This document shows, piece by piece, positions 19,301-58,398 of a stretch of DNA of 64,000 nt; position 1 is the stretch's first letter; each line of letters begins with the position of its first letter. Source of the stretch: Siphonodentalium dalli (Eukaryota; Mollusca; Scaphopoda; Gadilida; Siphonodentaliidae); contig CP136064.1 of assembly GCA_032622095.1 (NCBI GenBank), positions 129,443,605 through 129,507,604 of the forward strand, given 5' to 3'. Position numbers and translations under genes: made by a program. The notes under the pieces are model-generated. The model made no database searches, was not told the origin of the DNA, and saw only the letters and a list, made by a program, of their open reading frames with translations.

Positions 19301-22102
19301 GAGGCTCCAAGCATGATGCCGTGATTACGCATAATCATTAATTATTGGCATACCGGAACAGTCGTTTCAGTCGATTGATTTCGTTAGTATTATGATATAC
19401 ACAACGTACATATCATGGGACTCATGTACGCCCATAGGTAACTTTATTGTTCGTCAACATGTAGACATTTTGATTTATGTCAGACTATCAAAAATCAAGA
19501 TGTATGCATACGGAGTACAACAGAACTATCTATATAGTACATATATACAGCGTAACAGGTATAAACTATACTATAGAAACCGAAAGTGCATGTCTCGTGA
19601 CTTTAAATACTAAGTCAAAGACAATGTCATTTCATCCAGTCAGCCTCATGTGACGTCACGTATAGTCACCACCAATGATTATTATGATGACCACGCTGAA
19701 ATCGAATCGTGTCTGTGAAATTGACATGAACATGGTGTAACTTGCAACTAGTTCAGTCGGCTCATTTCCTTTGATGTGATGTCTTTGAATTGGGATCAAA
19801 GAAAAATTCCGTTTGATGAATTGTTATTAAAAATGAACCGTGGACATGTCGTCATGCACGTGGCTACATCAAACTTTCAAACAATTTGTTGTGGAATAGC
19901 TTAAAATACATGGGTATGTTGCCTGTATTCGATCACAAGTCCGCCCATGCCCACCTATATACTTACCCAAACATATGTATACTGTGTGCTGGCATATTAC
20001 TTTGTTTGTTGCTTGCTGCTAATTCTAAGTATTAAATAACACATATAACATATTCTGCTATAATTATTGAAATAATCGGAATCGGCACCTGAATCGGCCG
20101 ATTGTGATCTCAAATAATCGGCAATCGGCGCAAGGCTCTATTTGACAATCGGCTCATCACTAATTCTAGGTAATGGTCAGGTGAACTCATATTCCAAATA
20201 TCTTTGAAATCCGTTGAGATTTGTGGAAATGAGCCCTGGGACGTCGTCTATTTGCTATTTTCGTAAATTCGACAAAAATAATAAACAAAGTCCAATAACT
20301 CCGGTAAAAATATCTGGCCAGACCTGGCTTGCGAACTCATTCTAGGTAATGGACAGGTGAACTCATATACCACAAATCTTTGAAATCTATTTACATTTGT
20401 TCAAGTTATGACTCTTACAAATTCGGGACGGACGGAACCCATTACTATATCCCCCGCAAATTTTAAATTTGGCGGGGGATAAATATGTTGATTCAGTTAA
20501 ATCCATACCTAGTGATTATTTCTAAGAAGCTTGTGATGTTGTCCTCATTATCAATCTGTATAACAGGTCCGCTGAAGCGTTGTCCCACATCAAGCTACGA
20601 TATAACCAGTATTTATTAATATATAAGAACATTGAATCAACTCAGATGAAAAAGATTGCTTTAGAGGTTACATGCACCTCACAACACCCAGATATTAGTA
20701 ACTTAATAGTAAGGAATAACAGGTCCCAGACAAAATTAGTCTTTAAATTATAGTACCTAATTATATAAGACATTTGCTATTTGACATTGGTGCTAAAATG
20801 CCTACTGTTACTAATCCGATAGTCATTCAATGCTTAAATTAAAGAATAATATATTTGTAATGAACATAATGATCATCAGGAATGACTGCTGATATTTAAG
20901 TAACACACAGAAATTCACAAAAGAAGGCCAAGTTCTGATTCCGAGTGACAACACGTTTGGCTGTTATCAGTCATTTTGATCTCGAGCCATCATGACCGTT
21001 TACAGCCACTATGACAGTGATAGTGTTATAGAATACCTTTGATAGAGCATACCTCTTTGAGAAGTTTCTGATTTAGAGACAGTATTATAATTGCAGATGC
21101 ACCAAAAAGAAAGGCTTCCTTCACCTGAAATGTATAATGCATTAATCAAGTAACTGAAATTAACACTGGAATCCTCTAGAGAAGATATGTTCACATGTCA
21201 CATGTTCTATTTTATACGGATATATAAATTTAATAGGATTGATACTAGTCTTGGTGTACTGTATCTTTTTGGGATTATCTTCAGCCATATTAATTTGACA
21301 TATAGTAATGCCCTAAATAATCGACTCCTTGACCACAGCGGAATTATGGGTAATTTTTCAGGATTTAGTCAGAAATATGGCTTGTTGCCATTCATCGAAA
21401 AGTTCTCACTGAGAGCTTTCCGATGAATGGCAACAAGCCATATTTCCAACTAGATCCTGAAAAATTACCCATAATTCTGCTGTGGTTAAGGAGTCGATTA
21501 TTTAGGGCATTACTGTAGTTGTGATTAAATTTCTGTATATGTATGACATGCTTCATTGCTTCTTCCAGACTCTCAATTGAATAGGACAACTGACATGAAA
21601 TTTAGTTAGGCAACTTTATAGGTATTTGGAATTTTGGAATAGATGTATTGGTCCACATACGTTTTTTGTCCAATGGATTATTAATTGACTAAGGTACTGT
21701 AAGGTATATGATTAATCATGTGATCGCCCTTGTACAGAAGTGTCAACAGGGTGTAACAAATTTCCAAGTGCTGTTATTTTGATAGCAAGAGCAATGTTCA
21801 CTAAGGACTTTTACTTATTGAAGCGCAATACGAAAATTTATTTACCTTACCTTGTCAATGACATTAGAACAATTCTTCAAAGTGCTGTCTTCACAAGATG
21901 TTCCACCGCCACTATCAAAATAGATGACACCAATCCAGTCTTTTGATAGCTTGGTAAATCTGGTGTCATCGCTGTCTTCCAATAACTGAAAAATTATTAA
22001 TAAAATAGTCAGCAAATATATATATATATATATCTTTAATTCCTCCATATAAATGAAGATATGATATACACATACAAGAACAGATCGGCCGGGCACACGA
22101 AC

Positions 22103-25200: not shown

Positions 25201-28200
25201 CTTCCTCTGGAACAGCACAACGCACTTCCTCCGAAATTGCATTTGTGACCATATATGATTACTGGTACTGGCGTATGCATGTAGATATATCAGAGTTACA
25301 TATAATGCCCTAAATAATCGACTCCTTAAATAACCACAGCATAATTATGAGTAATTCTGCTGTGGTTAAGGAGTCGATTATTTAGGGCATTACTATATGG
25401 AGGCAGGGACTCAGTATGAGTGTTCATTACTTCATACTGGCATGTGATTAAAGGTACTCAACCTGATTCAATGGTCCCCATATAATCATTTTCCAACAAC
25501 AACAACAATTAATTGCCCAAATATAAAGCTAACCACTGTTAACTATAGTATAAAATTGCCTGAAATGTGTTATTTATCAACATGATGTTCGACAAAATTT
25601 GGCCTTATTATCAACACAAGGCCTTTTTGATTTTTGAGTTAACCATCTTTATCCACAATTTGGTCCGAGACCGTCGGCCTGTCAACCTTTTACTGGGCCA
25701 CTAATAAGTCTTGATGGTGAAAAATAATGGATTTCAAAAATTTATTTCAAATAACTCTGAGCTTTGTTAGGTGGGTTCCTCGACTCGAATCCATTTTTTT
25801 TGTTTACGTCCGAAACCAAATAAATAGTAATTGAGAGGCACTTAATCGGATTATGCACCTTTAACTCAGTGACCGTGAACAAATTCCCATAAAAATGGCC
25901 AATTTACATGCAACATCAGCCAACATACACATGTACACATATATACCACACGTATAGATGGACCCCTGTGGTTTCAATTATATTGGCATTGTGTTAAAAG
26001 CAGTGAAGGATCCAGGAATATTTTGGGGACACCTGTTTTCAGGCAATAATATGCAGAAGGCATATCCCGAAGGCCTGAGCGGGGGAGGTATGGGAGGGGG
26101 TGTCCCCCCCCCCCCTGCTGATGATGGGGGGGGGGTCTGGGTATTCTACCCCTGGATAATTTTTGAAAATCCATTGCATTGAGAGCTAATCTAGGTCTCT
26201 CGGAGTCAGTATTTTGAATTTTACTGAGAAGTCAATTTGATCAAGTTTCTCAAGTGTAACTGGAAATTTGTATATATGTATGGGATTGGAAATGCTAAAA
26301 AGTTATTGTCAGATATATTTTGGTTCAATGGATTATGCTTATCCTGCTTGAAATGAGACTTATCGTTATCACTCTAATTCACATAATAGGCGATTTTCTA
26401 AAATTCAAGTGAGAGACACATAAATAATATACTAGTAGTGCCGAAACAATGTCTATTAAGTTAGTAATTACTATTAGTACTAATCTCTATTAATTATTCA
26501 TTTGATATTATGACATCCCACATGATAACCATGCAGGTTGATTTGATCCAATTGTCACTGTTCCTGAACTGTATTGTGTAATTTCACTTGAATTTGATTG
26601 AAATACTAAAGTCTGAAGGCTGAATGATAACAAACCTGCACTCAAACTTTGAAGTTTTCACAGATGAAAGCTAGATAAAGACAAACATACCCTACAGTAT
26701 GATTCCAACTGCATGTAAACTTAAATGTCTTATGTCAATATATATAAATGTTTTGTATCTTGTTATGATATGAATTGGGACCTGAACTGGAAAAGAAAAA
26801 AAAAGAAGCTTTTTTTGGGCCCCTGGAGTTTGGGCGCCCAAACCGGTAAACTGTATAAAAACCGGCCTGGACATGCATGTCCCTGGTTAAAAGCAATCAC
26901 ATTGAACTAAAAAGAAAATAAACAGAAAATAAAGAATACATATAACCTGTGTATACATGTATGTGTATTCATATGGGAGGCCGTTTCCACATTTATTCCT
27001 TATTAAGCGCAAATCATTTGTTCTTAAGCATAAATAATTGCGGTTAAGCGCAAATAAAAATTCATATGCATTGATTCCCCCCCTGAATTAATGATAAATG
27101 GCACAGGCCAAAACACACCACTCAAGTCTATATAGGCCCACCATATGAGGGAAGCAATCCCAAGTAACCCCTAATTCCCTTTTTATGACCGTGGAAATGG
27201 TATAGATCTGTGCAGGATATGTCTCTTTTATAAACTATACTAGCAGGTTAGCCGGCCAATGGCGTAGTTCGTCTCATGGCTTTGTTCGCAAAAGCAATTG
27301 CAACAGCTTCCGAGACACGTATGCTGCACGTACATGTAGGTGTAATATTTCGTCAAAATCCGCTAGTTTTACCCGATTTGACCTTGAATTGATCATTTTC
27401 AAGGTCAAGGTCAGGTCGGGTCACAATTTAATCCGTCCATGACACTTCCCGCACAATAAAGGACACACACATATATATCATTTGTGGGTACCCGTTTCAA
27501 GGTGAAGATCACCTCGGGCGGAAAACTGACCCGATGAAAATCTCCCCCGTTCCTAGGAAGCCCTAAGTACGTAAGAATCACACAACACGCTCATGTCTGG
27601 ATAGTCATTCTCACGTGTGGACCCAGACGTAAAACGCGATTAATCCCACAGTGCCGTTTTTTGTGACTAGGTGTGGAGAAGGGGTGCTCGGAGCTTCTCA
27701 GAAACGGCGCGACGACGCGTCCCATGGGTTTTTACCCTTAGATGGGAAGTTTGGTGTCGATTTTCGATTCTATAAAGTATATATATACACACATATATAT
27801 ATATTTATATACGGAGTTCTCAAAGTATATAGTAGACTAGCAGGTTAGCTGGTGGCAATCGTCAGAAACATGACAATTTTTTATTTTTTTTATTAATTTT
27901 TTTAATTATTTTTTTAATTTAATTTTTTGTTTTTCAATGAGTTATGTGTGCCTTTTTAATTTACTGGTTAAAACTGTGCCTTTTGAGTTTTTGAATTTAA
28001 TTTTTTGTTTTTCAATTTTACCCGATTTGACCTTGAATCGATCATTTTCAAGGTCAAGGTCACAATTTAACCCATCCATGACACTTCCCGTGGATAGCAA
28101 GTTTGAGCTCTATCGGTTCGAGTCTATAAAGGACACACACATATATATCATTTGTGGGTACCCGTTTTAAGGTGAAGATCACCTCAGGCGGAAAAACTGA

Positions 28201-31200
28201 CCCGATGAAAATCTCCCCCGTTCCTAGGAAGCCCTAAGAACGTAAGAATCACACAACACGCTCATGTCTGGATACAGTCACGCTCACGTGTGGACCAAGA
28301 CGCAAGAATCACATTACACGCATATGCTCTTTATCAACGGCACTGCGGATACGAACGCTCATTAACTATCAACGCGATTAACCCCACAGTGCCGAGGACG
28401 GTCATTTTTGTGACTGGGAGTGGAGAATGGGTGCTGAGAGCTTCTCCAAAACGCTGCAATGGAGCATCCCGTGGTTTTTTAACCTTAGACAGGAAGTTTG
28501 GTCTCAATCGGTGCAGCCGTTTTCGATTCTATAAAGTATATACACACATATTTACACACATACGTAGTTCTCAAAATATATAGTAGACTAGATCTCTGCG
28601 ATGGAGATTCAAATTCTTGGGGGTAGGGATGCTGATAATATGAAAATAGGTTTTTTTCCCATTTGAAGACAATAAACTTTGTACACCATATGAAGGAAGC
28701 AAGCCCCCCAGTAACCTCTAATTCCCTTTGTATGGCCATGGAAATTGTATACATGTATATCTGTGCAGGAAATGTCCCTTTAATCTTGAACTCTGTGAGT
28801 GAGGCACCAATTCTTGGGACACCAGGGGCAGAGATGCTGATATATTGCATATGGAATTAAGTTTTTTCTTCAACTTTCGAGTCTGTATGGGGTTACTACT
28901 ATGAGATGGACTCAATCATTCACAATTGGAGGGAAGTAAGGGAGTGTTAGGTATTTGCGCTTAAGCTAAAATTAGTTACGCTTAAGCTCAAATGATTTGC
29001 ACTTAAGCGCAAATAAATTGTTAGACACATATTTGTACTCAAGTGAAAATGATTTGTGCTTAAGAGCAAATTATTTACACTTAATCGGAAATATTTGCAC
29101 TTAAGCGCAAATAAACAATAAATGTGACAAGGCCTCCCATATATCCATGCATTGGTACAATTTTAATAGACCATCAACATAAATGATATATGCCACAAAA
29201 TAACAATTTCAACATGAACATGTCGATTTTAGGTACAGTAATGCCCTAAATAATCAACTCCTTAACCACAGCAGAATTATGGGTAAATTTTCAGGATTCA
29301 GGATTCACTGAGAGCTTTCAAATGAATGGCAACAATCCATATTTCGAATATAATTCTGCTGTGGTTAAGGGGTTGATTACTTAGGGCATTACTGTACTTA
29401 TATCAATGACGGGATGTCTACAAACAATTTGTGTGTATGTTTATGACACAGGAATGTCCATTTAGTATAGAAATCAATCAATATTAGAGCGTTTGTGCTA
29501 TTTTTATTAGAAGAAAAGCTACCTTTATTGGATAAAGTACAACACATAAACAATTAAATTTTCTCATAATCCAGGCACATACGGTACACACTATAGGCAC
29601 ACGTACTGCCATACATGTATAGACATCACCCAAGAGATGTCATTCAAAAGAAGATCTCTATGCCAGTTTCAAAACAACTGCAGATCATCATCGATTCCAG
29701 TGGAGTGTCTGTGACCAATTATATGACAATGCGGAAAGAATCTGGAATCAATTATGATCTGCAGTTGTTTTGAAACTGGCATAGAGATCTTCTTTTGAAC
29801 AAATCTCTTGGGTGATGACTACCAGTGAAGTGATAAATGGAGTTCTCAGTTGATTTTGAAATGTGCATGAAGATCGAGTTCAACATTTCATGGAATGGCC
29901 CAGTAGTGATTACAGAACACAGTATCACAACAACAAATCAGTGAGAAAAAATCAAGATGCGTTATGTTGTGACCTGTGTGATCAATGGATTCACCTCCGC
30001 TGCTCTAAATTACTAAAAACAGATTTCATGAAGCTAGCTAATGATGATAGCCCATGGTTTTGCTACCATTGTAATGAGACGTTATTTCCATTTAATCACA
30101 TGGAGGAAGAGGCACTGTTTCGACTGGCATTATTTGACATGAAACAAGAATATGCTCACACAAATTCAAATAAATCATTTTTAATGAACCCATTCACTCT
30201 AAATGATGACTTCCGTGAAGAACATCAAATGGATGATGATGACTACAATTTAAACCCAGTAAATCCTGAAAACTCCTCTAATTATACCCTCCTTGATGAA
30301 TTTAACGATAAATTGAAAATAATAAACCAAAATGTGTCATCATCAATGATACACTTCAACATACGTTCACTATTAAAATATATGGACAAGTTATCCACTT
30401 TCCTGTATACCTGTAAACACAGATTTGATCTAATAGGCGTTACTGAAACTTGGCTCAAGGATGAATCTCCTGTGGATCTAACCAAAATGGGAAGCTATAG
30501 CTTATATGAGAAACATAGGAGTGATAGAGGTGGGGGTGGAGTTGGACTTTATGTACATGAAAGCATTGAAGCACAGGTACGATCAGACTTGTCTTTGTTC
30601 AGTGAGAACTTTGAGAGCTTATTTATTGAAATTCCTGACAAAAACAAAAAAAACAAAAAACAAGTAGTAGGATGTATATATCGAAGCCCAAATTCTAATG
30701 TCGATGACTTTCTTGAAAAACTTGAAACAGTATTAACCAAGATACATAAAGAGAAAAAAGATTGTTTCCTAATGGGAGACTTTAATATAAACATAAATAC
30801 TAATAACACCAGCGGAAACAACTTCCTTAACTTACTAAAGTCATTTATGTTCTTGCCATCAATAACGAAACCCACTAGAATAACTGAGTTCAGTGCAACA
30901 CTTATTGACAACATATTCTCCAACTGTCTCCTCTCCTCATCTATCAATGCTGGTATATTCGTGGAAGACATTACAGACCACATGCCTATCTATCTCCTTT
31001 TGAGCAATGGAACTAAAACAATGAATAAGAAAGACGTATTTATATGGCAAAGAGACTATTCAAAAAGAAACAAAGAAAATTTTATAACCGAAATATCCAA
31101 AATTGACTGGACTATGGTGTTAGACAACCAGGATTGCAACAAAGCCTACAATTCTTTCCACGAAACATTAACAAACATTTACAATAACAATTTTCCAAAC

Positions 31201-34200
31201 ATCAGAAAGAAAATCAAACCTTCTAATCATTGCAATCCATGGATAACAGCAGGTATACTGAATTCCATTAGAAGAAAGAATAAACTATATAAAATATTCA
31301 TTAAGAACAGAACATACTATAATAATGATCGATACAAGAAGTATAGGAATAGACTAAATTCAATTATCCGTACTGCTAAACAACACATAGGAAATTCCAA
31401 CAATATGAAGGTAATATCAACAAAGAGGAAATTGCTACCAAATTCAATGAATTCTTCGCCAATATTGGACCAACCCTTGCTTCAAAAATTAAATCTAACA
31501 AGAATCCAGCAGATTACCTTATATAATCAACCTAAGTGTTCTTCATTCTTTATCCAACCAACAGATGAACTTGAAGTCATAGAAATTCTCAAAAATATCA
31601 GTGCAAAAAAGGCTGCCGGTATTGATGATCTCAAGTGTTCAATATTGAAACATTGGAGCGAATTTATTATTAAACCCATTACACATATATGCAATCTTTC
31701 TCTTGCTAATGGAATATTTCCAGACCTCATGAAGATAGCAAAAGTTGTACCTATTTTCAAAGCTAAAGACCCAACCACATTAAGTAACTACAGGCCAGTC
31801 TCTGTGCTACCTGTATTTTCCAAAATCCTAGAAAAAATGATGTACAACCGACTGAACGGGTAGGGTTCTCTATTCCGAAGGTTCGCTATTCCGAAGGTTC
31901 ACTAATCCGAAGGTTCACTAATCCGAAGGTTCACCAATCCGAAGGTTCACTATTCCGAAGGTTCGCTATTCCGAAGGTTTTCTATTATGGGAGTTTTTAG
32001 CCAGAAATGAATCAAAATTTGCGCCCCCGTACATTTATACACCCCAATCTAATATCTAATTTGTCCCGGATGTCGGTTATTAATAGCAAGAAGACAGTAT
32101 CAGTTTATCATTTTAATATTATAGAAAGTTGAAAACACAATGACTGAAATAAACAACGAGTTAGAGATGCATTCTACCCGAACTGGCAATCTGTACTTGA
32201 AAGAAACATCAACATTAAAATCAATACAAAGTCAGAATTGCAGTTAGGTCCATTCAGCGGTATTCTGCTATACAGTAAGTTATAGCGCTCCAGTATTGAT
32301 TGACCGTAAGAGCCCCACTGTTATAGTCCGCCTTTAGCATTTGGGACATTATATTAATCAAAATAACTCCTATGTAAATCATTTATAAATCAGATGATAT
32401 ATTGAAGTTATATAGACGTAAAATAACTAAAATATGTCGTTTAGTCCTCAGCCGATAGACGACATATATGTCGTTCTACTCGCCAAAGGGTTAAATCTCA
32501 AGGAAACCCACGAAAACAAAAATCACATTTATTTTTTTAATGTTTTAAGTTATTTCCTTCATAAGAGTCTTCGTACTAAAGAACCCTCTCAATATACTTT
32601 AGAATATAGAATTAACTTTTAAAATAACAAAAACCTTCGGAATAGCAAACCTTCGGAATAGTGAACCTTCGGAATAGTGAACCTTCGGATAAGTGAACCT
32701 TCGGATTAGTGAACCTTCGGAATAGCGAACCTTCGGAATAGAGACATGTTCCCGACTGAACAAATACCTAACCAAATACAATATTCTATATAGAAGTCAA
32801 TATGGCTTCAGAAAGAATCACTCAACTATTCTGGCACTAACTGATCTCTTAGAGAAAATTACCCAAGCCCTAGATAATAGAGAACACACCATTGGGGTAT
32901 TCCTTGATCTATCAAAGGCATTTGATACAATAAATCATAATATAATGCAAAATAAACTTGAAAACTATGGATGTCGTGGGGTTGCACTGAACTGGTTCCA
33001 AAGCTATTTGACTAATAGCAAACAATCTGTACAATATGAAGGCCACTTGTCTTCACAAACAGATATAATATGTGGAGTTCCACAAGGATCTATACTTGGC
33101 CCTCTACTCTTTCTGATATATATGAACGAACTTCCAAATATTTGTAAGGACCTGAATCTAATACTATTTGCTGATGATACAAATGCATTTTACTCTAATA
33201 AAGATATAAATAAGGCATATGATATAGTCAACAAAGAAATGGAGACAATGAGCAAATGGTTTCTTGCTAATAAACTATCTCTAAACCTAGTAAAAACTTA
33301 ATTATTACATGATATTTACGAATACAGATCTATGCAAAAAAATAACTGTCCTACCCGAGCTCAAGATCAATGAAAATCTATACAAAGAGTTAAAAACACT
33401 AAATTCCTAGGAATTAATATTGAAGAAAATTTATCATGGAATATGCAAGTGGAATCTATTACTAAAAAACTGTCAAAAAATTTAGGAGAGTCATGAGAAA
33501 AATCAGTGACTTCATACCCAGAGATACAATGAAAACAATCTATTCTGTACTGATTATCCCACATCTCACATATTGTAATGCCATATGGAGTGCAACAACA
33601 AAGAAAAACCTTGAAAATCTTATAAAGATACAAAACAAAGCTATCGCCACACTATCTTACAAATAAAAGGTCAGCAGACCACAGTGTCCCCCGACAACAT
33701 GGCAAGTCGATGCCGCTTTGTTAAAGAAATTAAAAAAAATTGTTGAAATTTTCTAAGTCGAAAAGGGTTAATAACTCCATAAAAAAAATATTAGCTATAT
33801 AGATGTTGCAAATCACGAACATTTTAGGAACAATATCCCAGAGTTTCAAATCTCTACATTTAAAACTGTAGGAGGAGTTGATTACACCATGAAGGTACCC
33901 AATCTCATCCAAAAGGCAAAAATGTTCCAAATTTTCTAAGTCAAAACCCCCCAGAAAATATGGAAAAAAGGATATTTTTTATTAGCTATATAGATGTTGC
34001 AAATCACCAACATGTTAGGAACAATATCCCAGAGTTTAAAATCTCTACATTTAAAACTGTAGGAGGAGTTGATTACACCATGAAGGTACCCAATCTCATC
34101 CAAAAGGCAAAAATGTTCCATATTTTCTAAGTCGAAAAACCCCCCGAAAATATGGAAAAAATGATATTTTTTATTAGCTATATAGATGTTGCAAATCACC

Positions 34201-37200
34201 AACATGTTAGGAACAATATCCCAGAGTTTTAAATCTCTACATTTAAAACTGTAGGAGGAGTTGATTACACCATGAAGATACCCAATCTCATCCAAAAGAG
34301 GGTCATTTCTATAGTCCTCCAACGGAAACGTCGGGGGACAAAAAAAGCATACCAGAAATATGCAGGGACCACAATTTGCTAACATTGATGAATGACATTG
34401 GAAACATGCAACTAATACAAATTTTACATGATTTCCATCAAAAGAAACTCCCCAAATCGCTGTCTTCAATATTTACTAATATACATGATATCCATAACCT
34501 GACAATACACGGTTCAAAGTAAATTCAAATCTGTATTGTGAATTCAGAAGAACAAAAAAAGCAAGAAGTGTCATATCAACCAGAGCCAGATGTCTATGGA
34601 ATGAACTCCCATGTGATTGTAAGCTTCGCGTAGAAACTAGTGACAAATATCATAAGTACCTAAAATCACATTTCATTAATAAATACACCCCAAATATCAA
34701 ATAACAATCCAGTTTGTATGTATTCTCTCCCCTATTATATATACTAAGGCAATACCAGCCAGCAGTCCCTTACAGCAGAGACTGTCCAGAAGAGGGGGCA
34801 GAAATTAATGAACTTCTCTTTATTCTCATAGTAATATAATCCTCCCTCTCCTGGCTAGCTCTCCCGGTGAGGAACAGGCCAACCAAATTTATACCACATT
34901 TCCTCCATGTGTTACTATTTGTCACTCATCTGAACAACAGTGCAAAAATAATCAACTTGTCTATAACCTTAACCAATTCCTCAACCAAATCAAGCAGTAT
35001 TCACACCCATATTTCAATGATCACCTTAAATACTAGCTGGTATTCCCCACATTATTGAAAATTGCAAGACGATCGCGCAGGTCTCAGCATAAAGACATCA
35101 AGATAATCATATTGGCTACCAGATAAAGCATAACAAAAAAAAATAATGACTATAATCACCATCTCACAACCCGACCCCCCCCCACCCCATGCCCCCACCC
35201 CTTCTTGCCCATGCATCTCTATACAATAATACACACATTGTAAATACGCACCCGCACTATATAAATACGTACACATAACACTGTATCATTATAATATAAG
35301 CATAAGGGCCCTGCCCTTGCAAGTTAAACTTTTTGTGGGGTCCTGTTGATATATATATATTATAATTATATTGAATACGAAATAAATCTTATTGAATCTT
35401 GAATGTATATATAGCTGAAGGGGTCATTGCATGTCGCCACATTTTGGGGTGTTAATTTGGTAGACCTACGGGCCCATGATACAACTTATGAAAAGGTATT
35501 TTGGGTATGGTACCCATACTAGTACAGCTTGACTTTTGTTGCGTTTTCAGCCCACACGATACCCAATTCTTGCATCTGATCACATACAGGTACGGTACAT
35601 GATCGATGCATGGGTACCCTTACCGAAATCACAAGCCCTCGGTAAGCATTCAGGAAGGATTTGAATGCTTACAAATGAAGACTTAAATGAATCCTTATCT
35701 CAATCAATGCAATGGGCCAGTTACAGGAAAAATAAGCACTCGAAACAGAATTTAGCCCTCAATAGGGCCGACTTATTTAAATGAGCTAAGTACTCCCATA
35801 AGCACTCGAAGGCTTATTATGCCTTCGAGGGTTTAGCTCATTTAAATAAGTCGGCCCTATAGAAGGCTTGTTGGTTCCCGTAAGCACTCGAAGGCTAAAT
35901 AAGACTTCATAATTTGCATATAAGGCTTCGAAGGCTTATATTTAAGGCTTCGAAGCCTTATATGCAAATGATGAAGGCTTAAATGAAGCCTTACGAACCA
36001 TGTCTCGAATGCTTAAATTGGTCCCCGAATGCTAAAGATTATGGTGAAATGATGGCCTGTTTTCATAGAGTTACCTATACTGCATGGAAATGAGGGATAA
36101 CTCTATGCAGGATGCATGGGAATATGGGTGGTGTCATCAAAATTGGCTAGAAATAACAAAACAATTATGAAGTGATAACAATTTTATATTAGTGAAATGA
36201 ACAATTTTGAGTATATATGTATATATCAAGAATTTATGTTAGCTGTCACTATCATGTCCATGTTTAATGCAATTTGATTTCTGTACTCTCAGGCTCCGTG
36301 TAGGTCACCCCTTAAGCTAATAAATTGTTTAGGATATATGTCAATTCCACTGGCGATGCATGTAGTCTCAGTCTTCTTTTCTGGGAGTCGTTTTCAAATT
36401 CTGAAATGAGAAATAGTAAACAAATTTTAAATTATGTTTACATCAGAAATAACTGAAATGATATTATTTGTTTCAGAAAATGAGTTATGTGAATGATACA
36501 GTTGTTTGTAAATATATCAAAATTGTATTGGACTGAATATTAATATTTTTAGCTAGCATTGAACTAGTAAAATGCCCAAAAAATGATATAGGTGATGTTT
36601 TTTGTGGATTTAACATCTGATAAACCAACCTTTGAGTGATACTCAGTTTATGATATCAAAATGCAGGCATATCCAAAATTGAGATTAGATAGCTGATTAG
36701 ATATTCTAAATGTGTGCATTAACTGGAAGGAAATGGTTCAAATAATAAGAAAATAAGATATCCAATTTATAATATAATGCTAGTTTTACAATTCTAATAA
36801 CTTACTTTTTGCATTAATGCCCTTTGCTGTCATTTTCTTGTTAAATAGGAAATCATTGGACCATGCAGCGATATGGTCTCATATAGGTTCCTATATCAAT
36901 ATTGCTCCTATAGGATATACATCCAACATGGCGGCGTGTCCCGTATCCAATCACGTGATTAAGAACGCTCTATATTACTAGTTTTGGAACCCATTGGCTC
37001 CCCTGCATTTAAATTACCAATTAGGTTCAAACAAGACGTGTATAATGTACTTGTTCAATATGCCAACATTATCTTCCTCTGAAATTGATGTTATCATGCA
37101 TATACTAATAATTAATTAATTATGAATAATAAATAGATTATGTACACTGAAAATTCATAAAACACCAGAAGTCCACACAACCTTTTTAGTATTTACCCAA

Positions 37201-41935: not shown

Positions 41936-42746
41936 CACTCTTATGACTAATGTGTAGGTTTTCTACACAATGTGTTGCCCTGCTACACAATTATTATTCA
42001 ATTTTGATCTTAAACATATTTGTGTAGTATATGTGTAGTTTCATATTCGTACACAAATTGTGTAACAATTTTTACACATAAATGGGTAAATTTGTACACA
42101 TTTATACACAACTGTGTGCATAAAATTAACACATATCCCTTACACATTTTGTGTAGGTTCTTACACACAAAGTTTGTAGACAAGAAATGTAAGTTCAGTA
42201 GTCCGACCTGTGGGAATAGTATTAAAGATATATGCAGATTTATATGTTAAAACTTTCATGGTGCATAGTGGTATGTAGTAATTTGTTCTGTACTGTGTGA
42301 GTTTTTGTTTTAAATGAACAAACCAGGGTCGTGGCGTGATTGCATTATATTAGTATTATTACAACAATAATAACAAGAGTCTTAAGGGCAGTAATCGCCA
42401 TGAAAGTTTTAACAAATAAATCCTGATATATTATTAATACTAATACTATACCCACAAATCGGAATTCTGAACTTACAATCCTTGTCTATATACGATCTCT
42501 GTAGATTGCATTCTGAAAACAATTCTCAAACAATATGGCCGACATGCAGAAGAAGATATGAATCTGAAAGTACCGCAATGCGCATGCTCTACGTTCTTAC
42601 ACAATTATGTGTAACAAAATATACACAATATTAATATAATGGCCCTTGGTCCATGTAGTTATATGTAAAACTACACATTGATGTGTGTATTAATCGTGTT
42701 TACTCATTACATGTGTAATCATTTCTACACATTAGTTATAAGAGTG
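41936..42746. mobile_element. TA-flanked TIR element rich in TGTGTA motifs
   Basis: The ends CACTCTTATGACTAATGTGT and, inverted, CACTCTTATAACTAATGTGT are flanked by TA (41934-41935 and 42747-42748). More than twenty TGTGTA/TACACA motifs crowd the two end regions, in both orientations, while the middle (42230-42590) is ordinary. No transposase was seen. Confidence 0.78.
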
Positions 42747-46560: not shown

Positions 46561-47440
46561 TCAGTGACCGCACAACTTGGCCACTTCGTCCAGGAACTCT
46601 ATACTTCGTCTATTTCACCTGCCAAGTACACTCTTGAAATGCCGTCTTGAATTTTCCAAGGCACGATACTTTCTTTTCTGTGGGTTCACTTTGCCGCCCG
46701 CACTTATCTGTAATATTTTACATCATATGTCGGTGAAATGTTGATTCCTAATTCTGCTGATTTTTGCTTGAGAAGACCCAAGAATCTGATGTATGTTTGT
46801 TGCGTCTTGTTCGGCAGGAGTCCATAAACCAGGGGAACCATTATACTGTCGAGGAATGCGTGGACTGAATATATTTGAAGAAACATGTTGGGAGATTTCT
46901 CGAATGTACCATCGGCGTAGAAACGATCAGCATCGGCAAGGAACCTAAGGTTGCTGTCTGTTGCGAAGATCAATATCTTGTCACTTCCACCATTGGATGC
47001 AAGAAGGAAGTTTTCGTTCGCGGTTGTCATGGTATATTGCTCAGGCAAGTTGATATCGGCACGGGCTTTCGGAAGAACTGGTGTGGTTTTGGAACGAGAA
47101 CGGTATAGCGATGATTTCATACTGTAAAACGTTGGCACTTTGCTGATCAACATTGGGTCGGTTTCGTCGGTTCTAAGCGAAGTCAGCTCTTCTGGGTATA
47201 GATTGATGAAACTGTTTTACAAGCATTCCGCACTGTCGATTTCAGGTTTGATACAAACATGTCCACAGAAACTTGATCAAAATCCGTTATATGGTTATGA
47301 GGAGTTCCCGCTGACGAAACAATGTCATTCTTTGTATTAATAGTAGCACTACAAGTCTTTACACAACAAACCCAATGAATATTTTCCACACGCCGATATC
47401 TGACTCTTTATTTGTTGCCGTTGTAGATGAGATGCCTGCG
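46561..47440 (-). pseudogene. FLYWCH-MULE transposase, internally deleted (diverged copy)
   Basis: Read on the minus strand, a FLYWCH-type zinc finger comes first (RVRYRRVENIHWVCCVKTC, INTK, PHNHITD). A frameshift follows, then SLRTDETDPMLISKVPTFYS and the start of the MULE catalytic domain: FLADADRFYADGTFEKSP (first catalytic Asp in the ADGTF motif) and VPLVYGLLPNKTQQTYIRFL. It then jumps to the C-terminus (ISAGGKVNPQKRKYRA). The second Asp and the Glu of the DDE triad are deleted, and in-frame stops occur. Mutator-like element; not functional. Confidence 0.8.
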
Positions 47441-47895
47441 CCCCTGCTGTTTGGAATAAACTATGCATTAACTAGATAATTTGCCATTTTGATTTTTGAA
47501 AGATTGGCCATAGTCCAGTCCTTATATACAAAAAATATTCATGGTGAACATTAGTTAGTGTTATTTACATATGCGCGAAAAACAAGTGACAACAGTATAA
47601 ACACGTTTAAGGTGGCCTGGACACAACATTACATATTATCTGTGAACATTAGTTACATATGCGCGAAAAACAAGTGACAACGGTTACCGTGGCCTTAGTA
47701 TAAACAAGTTGGCCTGAACACAACGCTTAACTTGGATCGGCCTAATTGCCAGCGTTGTAACAACACAACCGATCGCACCTTGAGTTAATCCCCTGCCGCA
47801 TGTCTGCAAACTGAGACTAACCCGTCAAAGTATACCACATTAATTACTAATTTAATAAGAACAAAATATCGGTAAGCTCATCCCACTGCCAACCA

Positions 47896-48874
47896 ATGGA
47901 GCTTTCCACAGAGGCCACACCCACAGCGGTAGTCCCACCCACTGGTAAAAATACTTTTATCCACATAAATATTGTCTGTTACCCGAGATCGACAACCGAA
48001 GTGAACACATCAGCACTTGCCCTTATGTTAACTAGCTGAAACAGACTCATGTATATGATTCGTTCAAATTTGATCTTTTAACCATTTGATTTAAAAAAAA
48101 TTATTTAGATTCAATTTTTTTTTTAGATTGAACTTTGATCTGCTGTTGAACAAAAACTAAATATTTTGTTTAATTAAAATTTTTAAATAATGTTTTTTTT
48201 ATTTTATTTTTAGATTTTTAGATTGAATCTTAAATTTTTTTTTTAATTTTGTAATTTAAATTTTGTTTTACTTAATTAAATTTTGTTTTTATTTAATTTT
48301 AAAATTTTATTTTTAGATTTTTAGATTGAAACTTCTTGCTAAAAAATATAAAATTTGAAGAAAAAACAATTTTTTTTTTTTTTATTTGTTTCAAAAATTT
48401 AATTTAAAATATAAGTTCGTTATAACATCTGCCGTTGTACCCCGAGGCACCACACCAAATTTGGTTAAAATCGATCAAGGGCTCTGGAAGAAAAATTGCA
48501 TACAGAACAGACAGATCACTGACCAGATCTAAACCAGAGAACATACATTCGTTTTGCCATTAAATGTGAAAATTATGACAAGTGTCATGCTAAACGAAAA
48601 ACATTGTTATAATCACGGATAAATTTATAACATCATGCCGCAAATATAAATCTCAGTATATTATGATTTGACAACAAAAAAGTTGTTTGAATATAGCCAA
48701 TTTAACACTGAATGTATGCATGGATATCAAAATTAGGGTGAAGAAAGATGGCGTCGAAAAAAATCTCCGCAGCCAGCGGCCGGCTCGGTATCTGATTGGT
48801 CGAATATATTCTAATAAATTGCCTTTGGGCGGGACTACGCTGTGGGCGTGGCCTCTGTGGAAAGCTCCATTAAA
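47896..48874. repeat. Inverted repeat pair within copy A
   Basis: 'atggagctttccacagaggc' and about 24 further bases near 47896 are inverted at about 48829-48874 ('gcctctgtggaaagctccat'). The pair recurs in B (about 50530 and 51511) and the right arm in C (about 55550). It may be the TIR of a 0.98-kb element, but no target duplication is visible. Confidence 0.6.
48420..48540 (+). repeat. Dispersed 'accaaatttggttaaaatcg' repeat
   Basis: A short module, 'cgaggcaccacaccaaattt', 'ggttaaaatcgatcaaggg' and 'gaacagacagatcactg', occurs here, in copies B (51060) and C (55100), and in diverged form at 60095-60185. A looser relative ('aagtttggtctcaatcggtg') lies at 28492. Confidence 0.6.
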
Positions 48875-49251
48875 GCAGAGAATAAAATCTCACAAACAAA
48901 TCCTGGATGATTGACAGGTGTATGTCGACGCAATAGCATGCACGGGATCGATTGTTTCCGGGGGTACCTGCACGAGGTGTCAATAATCACGTACTTCAAT
49001 CATTTGCCGCTTATAGTCTATTCCTCTTTTCTGTTGGTGTTTCTATGGTTTGTCCTCTCTTTTTGTAGGTTTTTAATGATTTGTCAATTTGGGAACGAGG
49101 GTTTTGGAACCTTTGGTGCTGATTCAATGTTGATGTCAGGAAATAATCTATGTCATGTTTTATTTATTTATTGATGCAAAATAATTAATAAAATACATAC
49201 AAGGAGATAACAAACATATAACAAATACATGACAATACTTTAACAAAAAGC

Positions 49252-49809
49252 TCAATGGCGAACTAATTTAGCGATTGAATCTAAGTATTCTACAACGTCG
49301 ATCTCGTTTTCCCTGAATATTCGCTTGAATTGTCTAAGAGACGCGTTGACAGCCCGATATTTTCTTCTCTGTGGTTGAACTTTGCCGCCACCAGTCAGTT
49401 GAAGTATCGTCGATTCTGTATAGGCTTGTTCTTTTTTTATGTGGTCGATCATGTCGAATATATTTGGTTTTGAAGCTGCTATATAACCTTGAAGTTTTCT
49501 GTGCCACCATTCGACGTGGTACGGCCTTCGCCACCTTCAATCAACTGCATAGTCACATAATCGGAAAACTTTGTCAAGAAAATGGATGTGTCGTACCTGG
49601 TCAGAATCGGCTAGATGGTTGTGTTGACTCATTGAAGAACTAACTATCTCGTTCTTTGTGTTGATGGTGGCACCACAGCCATTCTTAAAACACACCCAGT
49701 GTACATTCTCGGATCGACGTCATTTGATGCGGAATTTGAAGTCGTTGAAGACCAGGTGTTTGCCTCGATCGTTGGCGATGAAGAATACATTTACTTGAGA
49801 ACTTGCCAT
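49252..49809 (-). pseudogene. FLYWCH-MULE deletion derivative, copy A
   Basis: On the minus strand it encodes the same N-terminal FLYWCH finger and C-terminal tail (HVEWWHRKLQGYIAASKPNI .. GGGKVQPQRRKYRA) as copy C, with the whole DDE core missing between them. A serine codon of the FLYWCH region is a stop (TGA) here and in copy B. Confidence 0.8.
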
Positions 49810-51890
49810 GACGAAGATAGAACATTGAATATGATCAACATTGTAGAGACATGGGGGGTTTTTATAGCTCAGTACGATCGCTCAATACGAATAACAGTTT
49901 ACTACTATTTCACTGAGTGAACATGAAAATCGCTCATCTGATGACGACTCATGTGAAACTCGTTTAGCGGCATGCTAAAACAACATTGCAAACGGGAGCC
50001 GGGAAAACTGTTATTTAATTAATACAGACTATAGGCTCGACGATCACACCTTTAAAAATCTGCGTTATCGTGGAAACAGTGGGGTTAAATATAAATGTGA
50101 TTCGTCATAATGACCGCAAAGTCGATATTATGTACGGATTTAAATTTCCTTTAATTAAAAATACTAACCTATTCATGGTGAACATTAGTTAGTGTTATTT
50201 ACATATGCGCGAAAAACAAGTGACAACAGTATAAACACGTTTAAGGTGGCCTGGACACAACATTACATATTATCTGTGAACATTAGTTACATATGCGCGA
50301 AAAACAAGTGACAACGGTTACCGTGGCCTTAGTATAAACAAGTTGGCCTGAACACAACGCTTAACTTGGATCGGCCTAATTGCCAGCGTTGTAACAACAC
50401 AACCGATCGCACCTTGAGTTAATCCCCTGCCGCATGTCTGCAAACTGAGACTAACCCGTCAAAGTATACCACATTAATTACTAATTTAATAAGAACAAAA
50501 TATCGGTAAGCTCATCCCACTGCCAACCAATGGAGCTTTCCACAGAGGCCACATCCACAGCGGTAGTCCCACCCACTGGTAAAAATACTTTTATCCACAT
50601 AAATATTGTCTGTTACCCGAGATCGACAACCGAAGTGAACACATCAGCACTTGCCCTTATGTTAACTAGCTGAAACAGACTAATGTATATGATTCGTTCA
50701 AATTTGATCTTTTAACCAGTTTGATTTAAAAAAAATTATTTAGATTCAATTTTTTTTTTAGATTGAACTTTGATCTGCTGTTGAACAAAAACAAAATATT
50801 TTGTTTAATTAAAATTTTTAAATAATGTTTTTTTTATTTTATTTTTAGATTTTTAGATTGAATCTTAAATTTGTTTTTTAATTTTGTAATTTAAATTTTG
50901 TTTTACTTAATTAAATTTTGTTTTTATTTAATTTTAAAATTTTATTTTTAGATGTTTAGATTGAAACTTCTTGCTAAAAAATATAAAATTTGAAGAAAAA
51001 ACAATTAATTTTTTTTTTATTTGTTTCAAAAATTTAATTTAAAATATAAGTTCGTTATAACATCTGCCGTTGTACCCCGAGGCACCACACCAAATTTGGT
51101 TAAAATCGATCAAGGGCTCTGGAAGAAAAATTGCATACAGAACAGACAGACAGATCACTGACCAGATCTAAACCAGAGAACATACATTCGTTTTGCTATT
51201 AAATGTGAAAATTATGACAAGTGTCATGCTAAACGAAAAACATTGTTATAATCACGGATAAATTTATAACATCATGCCGCAAATATAAATCTCAGTATAT
51301 TATGATTTGACAACAAAAAAGTTGTTTGAATATAGCCAATTTAACACTGAATGTATGCATGGATATCAAAATTAGGGTGAAGAAAGATGGCGTCGAAAAA
51401 AATCTCCGCAGCCAGCGGCCGGCTCGGCATCTGATTGGTCGAATATATTCTAATAAATTGCCTTTGGGCGGGACTACGCTGTGGGCGTGGCCTCTGTGGA
51501 AAGCTCCATTAAAGCAGAGAATAAAATCTCACAAACAAATCCTGGATGATTGACAGGTGTATGTCGACGCAATAGCATGCACGGGATCGATTGTTTCCGG
51601 GGGTACCTGCACGAGGTGTCAATAATCACGTACTTCAATCATTTGCCGCTTATAGTCTATTCCTCTTTTCTGTTGGTGTTTCTATGGTTTGTCCTCTCTT
51701 TTTGTAGGTTTTTAATGATTTGTCAATTTGGGAACGAGGGTTTTGGAACCTTTGGTGCTGATTCAATGTTGATGTCAGGAAATAATCTATGTCATGTTTT
51801 ATTTATTTATTGATGCAAAATAATTAATAAAATACATACAAGGAGATAACAAACATATAACAAATACATGACAATACTTTAACAAAAAGC

Positions 51891-52448
51891 TCAATGGCGA
51901 ACTAATTTAGCGATTGAATCTAAGTATTCTACAACGTCGATCTCGTTTTCCCTGAATATTCTCTTGAAATGTCTAAGAGACGCGTTGACCGCCCGATATT
52001 TTCTTCTCTGTGGTTGAACTTTGCCGCCACCAGTCAGTTGAAGTATCGTCGATTCTGTATAGGCTTGTTCTTTTTTTATGTGGTCGATCATGTCGAATAT
52101 ATTTGGTTTTGAAGCTGCTATATAACCTTGAAGTTTTCTGTGCCACCATTCGACGTGGTACGGCCTTCGCCACCTTCAATCAACTGCATAGTCACATAAT
52201 CGGAAAACTTTGTCAAGAAAATGGATGTGTCGTACCTGGTCAGAATCGGCTAGATGGTTGTGTTGACTCATTGAAGAACTAACTATCTCGTTCTTTGTGT
52301 TGATGGTGGCACCACAGCCATTCTTAAAACACACCCAGTGTACATTCTCGGATCGACGTCATTTGATGCGGAATTTGAAGTCGTTGAAGACCAGGTGTTT
52401 GCCTCGATCGTTGGCGATGAAGAATACATTTACTTGAGAACTTGCCAT
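51891..52448 (-). pseudogene. FLYWCH-MULE deletion derivative, copy B
   Basis: Nearly identical to copy A, including the stop in the FLYWCH region. The C-terminal tail differs from A by Gln to His (RHFKRIF). No catalytic core. Confidence 0.8.
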
Positions 52449-53384
52449 GACGAAGATAGAACATTGAATATGATCAACTTTGTAGAGACATGGGGGGTTT
52501 TATAGCTCAGTACGATCGCTCAATACGAATAACAGTTTACTACTATTTCACTGAGTGAACATGAAAATCGCTCATCTGATGACGACTCATGTGAAACTCG
52601 TTTAGCGGCATGCTAAAACAACATTGCAAACGGGAGCCGGGAAAACTGTTATTTAATTAATACAGACTATAGGCTCGACGATCACACCTTGCCGGCGATA
52701 TTTTTGCAGGCTCGTCGGCAAAGTGAGAATAAGCCCGATGCATGACTATGTTTTTATATTTGACAACAAAGTTCCATTAAAATCTGCGTTATCGTGGAAA
52801 CAGTGGGGTTAAATATAAATGTGATTCGTCATAATGACCGCAAAGTCGATATTATGTACGGATTTAAATTTCCTTTAATTAAAAATACTAACCTTCGTAT
52901 ATTTCTACTATAAAATACTTGTTTTAAACTCGAAAAAAAGACGACACAAACCAGAAATATGTACTTGCAGTTCGGCCGCGGTGCTCAACTGCAGTTATCC
53001 CTGCATGGGTTAATTTGGGGAAACACTTAGAAGCCATTCTTTTCCCCATTCATGTCAAAACAATATAGCCAGTTGTTTACACAGTAACCAGTCAGCTAAT
53101 CACACTTCAGAGGGTGAGATGGCATCAGCCCAGAACATGTGATGCGCTTCAGTGCGACGACTGCCTTCAGTGTGGACAATAATCACTTTCAGGTGCCAAC
53201 TTTTTTATGTGTCATTGGTACGAAGTGTCCAGCATCTGCAGCCTCTGCGATTATGTCCAACGGCAATGGTTGGGTTCCACCACCTTTGTAATCGAAGAGT
53301 GGAGCAATTTCAGACATGAGCAATCTGCCTACCGACAACCCTTTCTCTTAGAGAGAGAAAGGGAGAGGAGATTTGCATTCAGAT

Positions 53385-53960
53385 TTGCTCAAATGAGGTC
53401 ATCAGGTCAAATGGTTGTGAATCCAGTTCCATAATTCTATCCCTCCATAGTAATTCTTAAAATAACTTCTCCAGAACCATAAGACTAAATATGTTCATAT
53501 TTGGTGTGGATGTTCCCTGTGTGACTCACTTTCAGATTTGTTCAAATGAAGTCACCCGGTAAAATAGTTGTGAAGCCAAGGACATTATAACTCTTTTCCT
53601 CCATAGTAATTCTTAAAACGAATTATTCTCCAGAGCCACAAGACTGAATGGGATCATATTTGATGCGGATGTTCCCCAGGTGACTCACATTCATATTTGT
53701 TTAAATGAAGTCGCCAGGTCAAACACCATACATGTAGTTGTGAATCCAGTTCAATAACTCTTTCCATTCATAGTAATTCTTAAAATAACTTCTTCTCCAG
53801 AACCATAAGACTAAATTGGTTCATATTTGGTGTGGATGTTCCCTATGTGACTCACACATTCAAATTTGTTCAAATGAGGTCACAGGTCAAATAGTTGTGA
53901 AGCCAGGGTCATAACTCTTTTCCTCCTTGGTAATTCGTAAAACGACAAATCAGGCCGATA
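53385..53960. repeat. About 160-bp tandem repeat, four units (copy B)
   Basis: Units share 'tcaaatggttgtgaatccag', 'catagtaattcttaaaataa', 'ccagaaccataagactaaat' and 'ttggtgtggatgttccc', with starts near 53405, 53567, 53735 and 53889. The same array recurs in copy C (about 57425-58000). Such ataactc-bearing arrays are familiar in bivalve genomes. Confidence 0.8.
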
Positions 53961-54358
53961 TAGCATACATTTTGTATGGAGATTCCATATGCGACTGGTA
54001 TTCAAAGTTGTTCAAATGGGGTTACCAGGTCAAATATGGGTGGATTCAGGGACATACTGGTAACCCTTTAAACCCGGCCTCCCGAAATATTGGGCTGCAC
54101 ACAACTGGCTCATTACCAATATTTGTAACTGGTATAAACATCGAGATACTGACCAAAAATGACTTAAATAGCTGTCCCGCACTTATGCGATATTTAGGGT
54201 GTCTGTACCAAGTGTATGGAAGATTCAACATCTATAGTTCACGTAGTTTGCGCATGCACATAGTATATATAAATGATAAAAATCTACTCCACATCAAACG
54301 TACACGCAAATTTAGCAACTATTGTATTGCACTCTGATAGTAATTGTGTATCTCATGT

Positions 54359-54749
54359 CAGGGACATATCCAGGTCGTTTTTCATACCGTTTACCATTTG
54401 TTTTTTTTTTTTAAATTCAGGTCCCAATTCATATCATAACAAGATAAGATATATCTGTTTATATGTTTATATATATTGACATAAGACATTTAAGTATACA
54501 AAAAGATTTAAGTTTAACAGTTGGAATCATACTGTATTAAAAGTATGTTTGGCTTTATCTAGTTTTCATCTGTGAAAACTTCAAATAGTTTGAGTTCAGT
54601 TTTTTTATCATTCGGCCTTCAGACTTCAGTATCTCAATCAAATTCAAGTGAAATTACATAAACCTGGTTATCATGTGGGATCTCATAATACCAAATGAAT
54701 AATTAACATAAAGATAATTAGATTAGTATTATTCTAGTAATTACTAACT
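54359..54749 (+). mobile_element. Truncated hAT-family element (family of 26001-26885)
   Basis: It begins CAGGGACATATCCAGG and matches the copy in C at 58399 until the duplication breakpoint at 54749. Confidence 0.7.
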
Positions 54750-55929
54750 AAATTCCCGCTATATTTTCCCATTGGAAAATGCCAATAAAGTCAACAGCCC
54801 AGCACACGACGTCATAACGTCATTTAGCAGCGAAGAGGTTAATTAAAATTTTTAAATAATTTTTTTTTAATTTTATTTTTAGATTTTTAGATTGAATCTT
54901 AAATTATTTTTTTTATTTTGTAATTTAAATTTTTTTTTACTTAATTAAATTTTTTGTTTATTTAATTTTAAAATTTTCTTTTTAGATTTTTAGATTGAAA
55001 CTTCTTGCTAAAAAATATAAAATTTGAAGAAAAAACAATTAATTTTTTTTTTATTTGTTTCAAAAATTTAATTTAAAATATAAGTTCGTTATAACATCTG
55101 CCGTTGTACCCCGAGGCACCACACCAAATTTGGTTAAAATCGATCAAGGGCTCTGGAAGAAAAATTGCATACAGACCAGAACAGACAGACAGATCACTGA
55201 CCAGATCTAAACCAGAGAACATACATTCGTTTTGCCATTAAATGTGAAAATTATGACAAGTGTCATGCTAAACGAAAAACATTGTTATAATCACGGATAA
55301 ATTTATAACATCATGCCGCAAATATAAATCTCAGTATATTATGATTTGACAACAAAAAAGTTGTTTGAATATAGCCAATTTAACACTGAATGTATGCATG
55401 GATATCAAAATTAGGGTGAAGAAAGATGGCGTCGAAAAAAATCTCCGCAGCCAGCGGCCGGCTCGGCATCTGATTGGTCGAATATATTCTAATAAATTGG
55501 CTTTGGGCGGGACTACGCTGTGGGCGTGGCCTCTGTGGAAAGCTCCATTAAAGCAGAGAATAAAATCTCACAAACAAATCCTGGATGATTGACAGGTGTA
55601 TGTCGACGCAATAGCATGCACGGGATCGATTGTTTCCGGGGGTACCTGCACGAGGTGTCAATAATCACGTACTTCAATCATTTGCCGCTTATAGTCTATT
55701 CCTCTTTTCTGTTGGTGTTTCTATGGTTTGTCCTCTCTTTTTGTAGGTTTTTAATGATTTGTCAATTTGGGAACGAGGGTTTTGGAACCTTTGGTGCTGA
55801 TTCAATGTTGATGTCAGGAAATAATCTATGTCATGTTTTATTTATTTATTGATGCAAAATAATTAATAAAATACATACAAGGAGATAACAAACATATAAC
55901 AAATACATGACAATACTTTAACAAAAAGC

Positions 55930-56190
55930 TCAATGGCGAACTAATTTAGCGATTGAATCTAAGTATTCTACAACGTCGATCTTGTTTTCCCTGAATATTC
56001 TCTTGAAATGTCTAAGAGACGCGTTGACCGCCCGATATTTTCTTCTCTGTGGTTGAACTTTGCCGCCACCAGTCAGTTGAAGTATCGTCGATTCTGTATA
56101 GGCTTGTTCTTTTTTTATGTGGTCGATCATGTCGAATATATTTGGTTTTGAAGCTGCTATATAACCTTGAAGTTTTCTGTGCCACCATTC
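55930..56190 (-). pseudogene. MULE transposase C-terminal tail, copy C
   Basis: The minus frame reads HVEWWHRKLQGYIAASKPNI, FDMIDHIKKEQAYTES and GGGKVQPQRRKYRA, then ends. It is typical of the C-terminus of animal FLYWCH-MULE transposases. It is out of frame with the FLYWCH ORF upstream. Confidence 0.75.
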
Positions 56191-56214
56191 GACGTGGTAC
56201 GGCCTTCGCCACCT

Positions 56215-56487
56215 TCAATCAACTGCATAGTCACATAATCGGAAAACTTTGTCAAGAAAATGGATGTGTCGTACCTGGTCAGAATCGGCTAGATGGTTGT
56301 GTTGACTCATTGAAGAACTAACTATCTCGTTCTTTGTGTTGATGGTGGCACCACAGCCATTCTTAAAACACACCCAGTGTACATTCTCGGATCGACGTGA
56401 TTTGATGCGGAATTTGAAGTCGTTGAAGACCAGGTGTTTGCCTCGATCGTTGGCGATGAAGAATACATTTACTTGAGAACTTGCCAT
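56215..56487 (-). CDS. Intact FLYWCH-domain ORF from a MULE derivative (copy C)
   Basis: This 90-residue frame starts MASSQVNVFFIANDRGKHLV and holds a FLYWCH-type zinc finger: FKFRIKSRRSENVHWVCFKN, GCGATINTK, then HNHLAD with the Cys-Cys-His-His ligands visible. It terminates (LCDYAVD) just past the deletion junction that removes the DDE core. Copies A and B have a stop (TGA) where this one has Ser. As it stands it would encode a DNA-binding domain without nuclease. Expression is unknown, and it may simply be a fossil. Confidence 0.6.
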   Translation of the reverse strand: MASSQVNVFFIANDRGKHLVFNDFKFRIKSRRSENVHWVCFKNGCGATINTKNEIVSSSMSQHNHLADSDQVRHIHFLDKVFRLCDYAVD

Positions 56488-57424
56488 GACGAAGATAGAA
56501 CATTGAATATGATCAACTTTGTAGAGACATGGGGGGTTTTATAGCTCAGTACGATCGCTCAATACGAATAACAGTTTACTACTATTTCACTGAGTGAACA
56601 TGAAAATCGCTCATCTGATGACGACTCATGTGAAACTCGTTTAGCGGCATGCTAAAACAACATTGCAAACGGGAGCCGGGAAAACTGTTATTTAATTAAT
56701 ACAGACTATAGGCGCGACGATCACACCTTGACGGCGATATTTTTGCAGGCTCGTCGGCAAAGTGAGAATAAGCCCGATGCATGACTATGTTTTTATATTT
56801 GACAACAAAGTTCCATTAAAATCTGCGTTATCGTGGAAACAGTGGGGTTAAATATAAATGTGATTCGTCATAATGACCGCAAAGTCGATATTATGTACGG
56901 ATTTAAATTTCCTTTAATTAAAAATACTAACCTTCGTATATTTCTACTATAAAATACTTGTTTTAAACTCGAAAAAAAGACGACACAAACCAGAAATATG
57001 TACTTGCAGTTCGGCCGCGGTGCTCAACTGCAGTTATCCCTGCATGGGTTAATTTGGGGAAACACTTAGAAGCCATTCTTTTCCCCATTCATGTCAAAAC
57101 AATATAGCCAGTTGTTTACACAGTAACCAGTCAGCTAATCACACTTCAGAGGGTGAGATGGCATCAGCCCAGAACATGTGATGCGCTTCAGTGCGACGAC
57201 TGCCTTCAGTGTGGACAATAATCACTTTCAGGTGCCAACTTTTTTATGTGTCATTGGTACGAAGTGTCCAGCATCTGCAGCCTCTGCGATTATGTCCAAC
57301 GGCAATGGTTGGGTTCCACCACCTTTGTAATCGAAGAGTGGAGCAATTTCAGACATGAGCAATCTGCCTACCGACAACCCTTTCTCTTAGAGAGAGAAAG
57401 GGAGAGGAGATTTGCATTCAGATT

Positions 57425-58000: not shown

Positions 58001-58398
58001 AGCATACATTTTGTATGGAGATTCCATATGCGACTGGTATTCAAAGTTGTTCAAATGGGGTTACCAGGTCAAATATGGGTGGATTCAGGGACATACTGGT
58101 AACCCTTTGAACCCGGCCTCCCGAAATATTGGGCTGCACACAACTGGCTCATTACCAATATTTGTAACTGGTATAAACATCGAGATACTGACCAAAAATG
58201 ACTTAAATAGCTGTCCCGCACTTATGCGATATTTAGGGTGTCTGTACCAAGTGTATGGAAGATTCAACATCTATAGTTCACGTAGATTTGCGCATGCACA
58301 TAGTATATATAAATGATAAAAATGTACTCCACATCAAACGTACACGCAAATTTAGCAACTATTGTATTGCACTCTGATAGTAATTGTGTATCTCATGT

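Follow-up and report, generated by a model that had tools for sequence, protein, structure and literature searches.

The FB elements of Drosophila have a variable core between long inverted arms that are made of short direct repeats, which is also the layout of the insert described here; their unit lengths and sequences differ from those found at this locus. The arms of Galileo, likewise from Drosophila, are longer than the ones reported below. The TU elements of the sea urchin, the subject of a 1983 report cited in PMC4079207, are said to possess inverted arms of approximately 15-bp tandem units like those of the present insert, and reportedly are flanked by an 8-bp duplication, as against 10 bp here.

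According to the available excerpt of PMC4079207, foldback elements are also named in rye, Arabidopsis, sea urchin and Chironomus, and Tetris of Drosophila virilis is an apparently non-autonomous foldback element with 8-10-bp duplications, placed in Mutator by its authors. Unlike the insert described here, Tetris has arms of up to 1,735 bp with units of about 220 bp (PMC4079207, same excerpt). Together with the root-knot nematode elements covered by the excerpt of PMC3169594, these cases indicate that the sequence-only reading of the locus, which held FB architecture to occur only sporadically outside Drosophila, understated its spread. The nematode elements constitute Tm1, a Mutator/Foldback family of Meloidogyne assigned to the Phantom subclass. 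As far as the excerpt of PMC3169594 goes, the arms of Tm1 consist of a tandem unit of about 14 bp and are on average 93.15% identical; outside them lie two asymmetric 7-bp motifs, A1 (CGGTTAA or CGGATAA) and A2 (CCTACCC). Of the 53 complete elements, 45 have flanking duplications of 8-10 bp, and in the isolates of M. incognita and M. javanica studied there a single Tm1 element carries the code for a Phantom-type FLYWCH-MULE transposase.

Among the literature matches listed, judged by title and the start of the abstract, we recognised none that describes an FB-type element in a mollusc, and three bivalve papers, in the passages available, mention foldback only in connection with Tetris. Foldback elements are known already from Drosophila, Chironomus, sea urchin, nematodes and plants; what is new is the element presented here, of which no description was found.

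An insert within a LINE reverse transcriptase

In the 64-kb window, i.e. the whole stretch of DNA analysed, a LINE is interrupted by an insert of 894 bp (31858-32751) that is bracketed by two copies of CCGACTGAAC (Table 1). The 5' frame of the LINE, which includes an endonuclease domain (Exo_endo_phos, E 1.3e-9, Pfam), enters the insert by one codon and then meets a stop; the open frame of the 3' part starts inside the right arm of the insert. As to the LINE itself, its frame opens with a PHD-finger-like stretch ahead of the endonuclease (E 8.4e-5, 23 bits versus a Pfam cut-off of 24), and downstream of it lies a tandem repeat with a period of 192 bp and 2.7 copies (33789-34298).

Table 1. Components of the insert and of its host LINE, in window coordinates
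Feature	Position	Strand	Description	Basis
Host LINE, 5' part	29860..31863	+	PHD-finger-like stretch, endonuclease, reverse transcriptase start	Pfam
Target-site duplication, left copy	31848..31857	+	CCGACTGAAC, 10 bp, identical to 32752-32761	direct reading
Left tip	31858..31866	+	GGGTAGGGT, nine bases, non-inverted	direct reading
Left arm	31867..31981	+	seven 16-bp units, commonest form about TCACTATTCCGAAGGT read inward	repeat search, TRF
Core	31982..32629	.	648 bp, 32.6% G+C	longest stop-to-stop frame 63 codons
Right arm	32630..32744	-	seven 16-bp units mirroring the left arm, 96.5% identical	repeat search
Right tip	32745..32751	-	CATGTTC, seven bases, non-inverted; GAACATG read inward	direct reading
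Target-site duplication, right copy	32752..32761	+	CCGACTGAAC	direct reading
Host LINE, 3' part	32726..33301	+	remaining reverse transcriptase	Pfam RVT_1, E 1e-28

Joining the flanks after removal of the insert and one duplicate leaves the frame open through the junction and yields a 132-residue piece, of which residues 25-127 match positions 5-99 of the RVT_1 profile in one stretch (E 1.6e-17), with the junction falling after residue 53. In the control comparisons the left part alone has no Pfam match and the right part alone, at E 1e-28 over a longer stretch, starts at profile position 22; because the right part matches only from that position, it is the left flank that contributes the first approximately 17 RVT_1 positions. 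Against PDB sequences the joined piece obtains 12 matches at E up to 1, of which the best is the LINE-1 ORF2 protein 8sxt_A (E 1.3e-8), followed by R2 proteins. The two alignments inspected, those with 8sxt_A and 8c8j_A, are gapless at the junction and have a two-residue gap five residues beyond it. A search for LINE relatives with an empty site in IMG/VR, where animal elements are not expected, returned 10 pattern matches, with 0 confirmed.

A 10-bp duplication by itself is approximately a one-in-900 event, given that a shared word of at least 10 occurs in 22 of 20,000 random 30-mer pairs drawn from the window, and is not decisive alone. It becomes convincing because dropping the insert and one duplicate yields an open reverse-transcriptase frame across the junction; the earlier proposal that the duplication accounts for the break in the LINE frame thus stands. 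The insertion had in addition been called dated, which holds in the relative sense that the element arrived after the LINE and is otherwise unsupported. The inverted arms, together with the duplication of 10 bp and the restored reading frame, support the initial identification of a foldback transposon within a LINE reverse transcriptase, and we assign to a foldback-type transposon a probability of about 0.93. With its exact empty site, this clean FB insertion provides reliable ends for an element that we have not found described.

Mirrored arms and unlike tips

The arms form an inverted pair of 115 nt each, 97% complementary and 648 nt apart (repeat search), and TRF assigns them a period of 16 with 7.2 copies at 31864-31979 and 6.9 copies at 32632-32741. 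The ends are accordingly mirrored arrays of a 16-bp unit, with seven units in each 115-bp arm, rather than simple terminal inverted repeats, as the sequence-only reading had recognised; the unit pattern that it gave fits, apart from a misprinted '[ai]' and the outermost unit of both arms, which has T in place of [ag]. At up to two mismatches TATTCCGAAGGTTC finds 15 matches in the window, 14 of them inside the two arms, whereas chance would give 0.38 on average across the window and 0 of 100 shuffles reach 15; the sole match outside the arms, at 45213, has two mismatches.

The two arms are in register, with 108 of 112 positions in agreement and the units sharing the same outside-to-inside order, and when the units of the right arm are put in random order, just 511 of 100,000 orders match the left arm equally well. 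Position-specific variants common to both arms include TCT in unit 1, TCG in unit 2 and TAATCC in unit 3. The mean identity among the units of one arm is 0.90 and 0.89 for the two arms. Since the unit order is the same and the arms are more alike (96%) than the units within an arm (approximately 90%), it is probable that one whole arm was copied from the other, or that the arms were homogenised, after the array had formed, as opposed to the two having grown separately. The single-strand fold of the insert, at -182.6 kcal/mol versus a mean of -73.2 (SD 3.9) for 20 shuffles, none of which is as good, mainly restates these inverted arms. In the interval 31800-32800 a histone hairpin as in Tm1-HH was not found by Rfam searches up to E 5, the sole match being bxd_5 at 15.3 bits versus a gathering cut-off of 50.

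The arms stop short of the duplication, leaving 7-9 bp at either end of the insert, and these two tips do not form an inverted pair. The first seven bases of the left tip, GGGTAGG, are the exact complement of Tm1 motif A2, a match which assumes that the motif is written as the right end of the top strand, this strand not being stated outright in the excerpt of PMC3169594; its statement that the right arms of Tm1 terminate with A2 favours, without proving, the strand reading that fits. The six Tm1 tip words, counted on both strands, fill 14 of 63,994 window positions, from which the probability of such a match across the two ends is about 4e-4. The right tip fits neither form of motif A1, and on reading the sequence motif B (GGA) of Tm1 is absent after either tip. 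Most arthropod MULEs have G/C at the first three end bases (excerpt of PMC13359780); the left end starts with three G/C bases and the right tip does not.

Comparison with Tm1 and the putative transposase

The element resembles Tm1, as portrayed in the excerpt of PMC3169594, in having arms composed of short units in tandem (mostly 14 bp in Tm1, 16 bp here) with non-inverted tips of about 7 bp outside them, and duplications that are mostly 8-10 bp in Tm1 and 10 bp here; the non-coding members of Tm1 are of a comparable size at about 1 kb. One tip word is further identical as the complement. It is unlike Tm1 in the second tip, in motif B and in the sequence of the unit. We also considered the 16-bp unit as a counterpart of Tm1 motif C, which it resembles by eye, and rejected this, the likeness being at chance level (360 of 5000 shuffles and 244 of 5000 window 16-mers are as good). 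The arms here, at 96.5% identity, compare with the 93% average of Tm1, and their unit numbers are equal (7+7), whereas the arms of one Tm1 element can differ in this respect. Finally, Tm1 has a transposase-bearing copy, whereas the element here is known from one copy without a long ORF (Tm1 features again from the excerpt of PMC3169594).

The length of the duplication and the layout make a Mutator-like (MULE) link plausible: 10 bp lies within the Mutator-like range of about 8-11 bp, and the available part of PMC6446971 lists 8-10-bp duplications for Phantom in its Table 1, where the Phantom row, as available, lists no mollusc. A foldback transposon with a Mutator-like transposase as its mover is, in our judgement, likely, and that this mover was of the Phantom type in particular is an even call. 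A non-autonomous foldback element would have moved by cut-and-paste into the older LINE, duplicating 10 bp of its target, its ends being recognised by a Mutator-like transposase encoded at another genomic locus, perhaps one of the Phantom (FLYWCH-MULE) kind. The repeated 16-bp units would probably furnish multiple binding sites for such a transposase, as reported for Galileo of Drosophila, in whose foldback arms the internal repeats are said to contain extra transposase binding sites (excerpt of PMC4079207). The two unlike 7-9-bp tips would then lie at the cleavage points.

Recurrence of the unlike tips in further copies would offer a way to study end recognition and cleavage by foldback MULEs, and would also bear on the repeated origin of FB arms versus descent from a Phantom-type ancestor. 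A more speculative extension, which we regard as unlikely, is that the element shares an old lineage of Phantom-type foldback MULEs with the nematode Tm1. The ends would then be polar and differ in role: GGGTAGG would be conserved as a cleavage signal for the transposase, with free turnover of the opposite tip and of the tandem units.

P and hAT elements make 7-8-bp duplications. It is unlikely that the structure derives from a different superfamily (P/Galileo-like, hAT-like or unclassified) with arms that acquired the FB layout by convergence: the layout is indeed known with unrelated transposases, such as the P-type enzyme carried by Galileo (excerpt of PMC3169594), and no transposase is tied to the insert, but the 10-bp duplication fits Mutator, with 8-10 bp in Tm1 and Phantom as far as the excerpts cited above go, and the unlike tips fit the sub-TIR layout of Tm1 and MULEs.

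With regard to candidates for the Mutator-like mover, a FLYWCH zinc-finger fragment is present at 56215-56538 (-) (Pfam, E 1.2e-6). Near copies of this stretch occur at 49537-49881 and 52176-52499, the Pfam FLYWCH match itself being for 56215-56538. An ORF at 46704-47216 (-) may resemble the start of a MULE transposase domain. Pfam gives no match for it at E 0.01 or better and, up to E 10, just a weak and unrelated one to Lactonase (E 0.25); NCBIfam, PDB sequences and the phage set yielded no match, and IMG/VR yielded 5 pattern matches of which 0 were confirmed. In the neighbour of this ORF, FLYWCH is not detected for 47186-47407 and is weak (E 0.23) for 47228-47407. The regions 46704-47407 (-) and 56215-56538 (-) are perhaps decayed Phantom-like transposons. 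The ORF and the FLYWCH fragment lie 14-24 kb from the insert, and nothing links either to it.

Local repeat growth, database searches and other repeats

Tandem arrays are common in the window, with 62 TRF rows, some of them overlapping, and the structure is seen in one copy with tips that are not inverted, all of which would accord with a local satellite expansion or a replication-repair (template-switch) insertion. Against such an origin, the LINE frame is restored by removing the insert and exactly one 10-bp duplicate, and mirrored seven-unit arms surround an unrelated 648-bp core. Further, no other array of the 16-bp unit and no second copy of the insert occur in the 64-kb window, where the best blastn match outside the insert has E 0.047. 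We consider local growth of this kind very improbable; the structure is a transposon insertion and not a satellite expansion. Least credible is an assembly or cloning artefact in the form of a false hairpin or chimera: inverted arms are prone to assembly errors and near-identical direct blocks are found in the same window, within 47536-58794, but the LINE is exactly continuous across the site apart from the 10-bp duplication, and the arms, with 4 differences in 115 positions, do not look like a folded-over copy.

An animal transposon would not be expected in microbial and viral collections (IMG/VR, GTDB contigs, phage and plasmid sets), and negative results from them carry little weight. An exact 15-mer matches 20 stretches in IMG/VR, once each, and a two-unit pattern has 0 matches there. 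In GTDB contigs the two-unit pattern has 1 match, in a Nostoc MAG, with no 16-bp array at that place; it looks to be located inside a group II intron reverse transcriptase. By blastn the insert has 0 matches in phage records; in the plasmid set it matches 2 Neisseria gonorrhoeae records over 9% of the query (81.6%, E 3e-6), which we take to be a chance short-repeat similarity.

Other repeats in the window include large direct repeats of 1.9-4.0 kb with 98-99% identity, at 47536-50052, 50170-52690, 50805-54753 and 54839-58794, representing either recent tandem duplication or an assembly effect. Three palindromic stretches (21301-21517, 25303-25392 and 29230-29400) have TAATGCCCTAAATAATC in common near their ends and are probably one family of hairpin-like miniature transposons. 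Further long palindromes, at 592-784, 9024-9165, 29620-29821, 35900-35981 and 42177-42488, are perhaps other miniature inverted-repeat elements.
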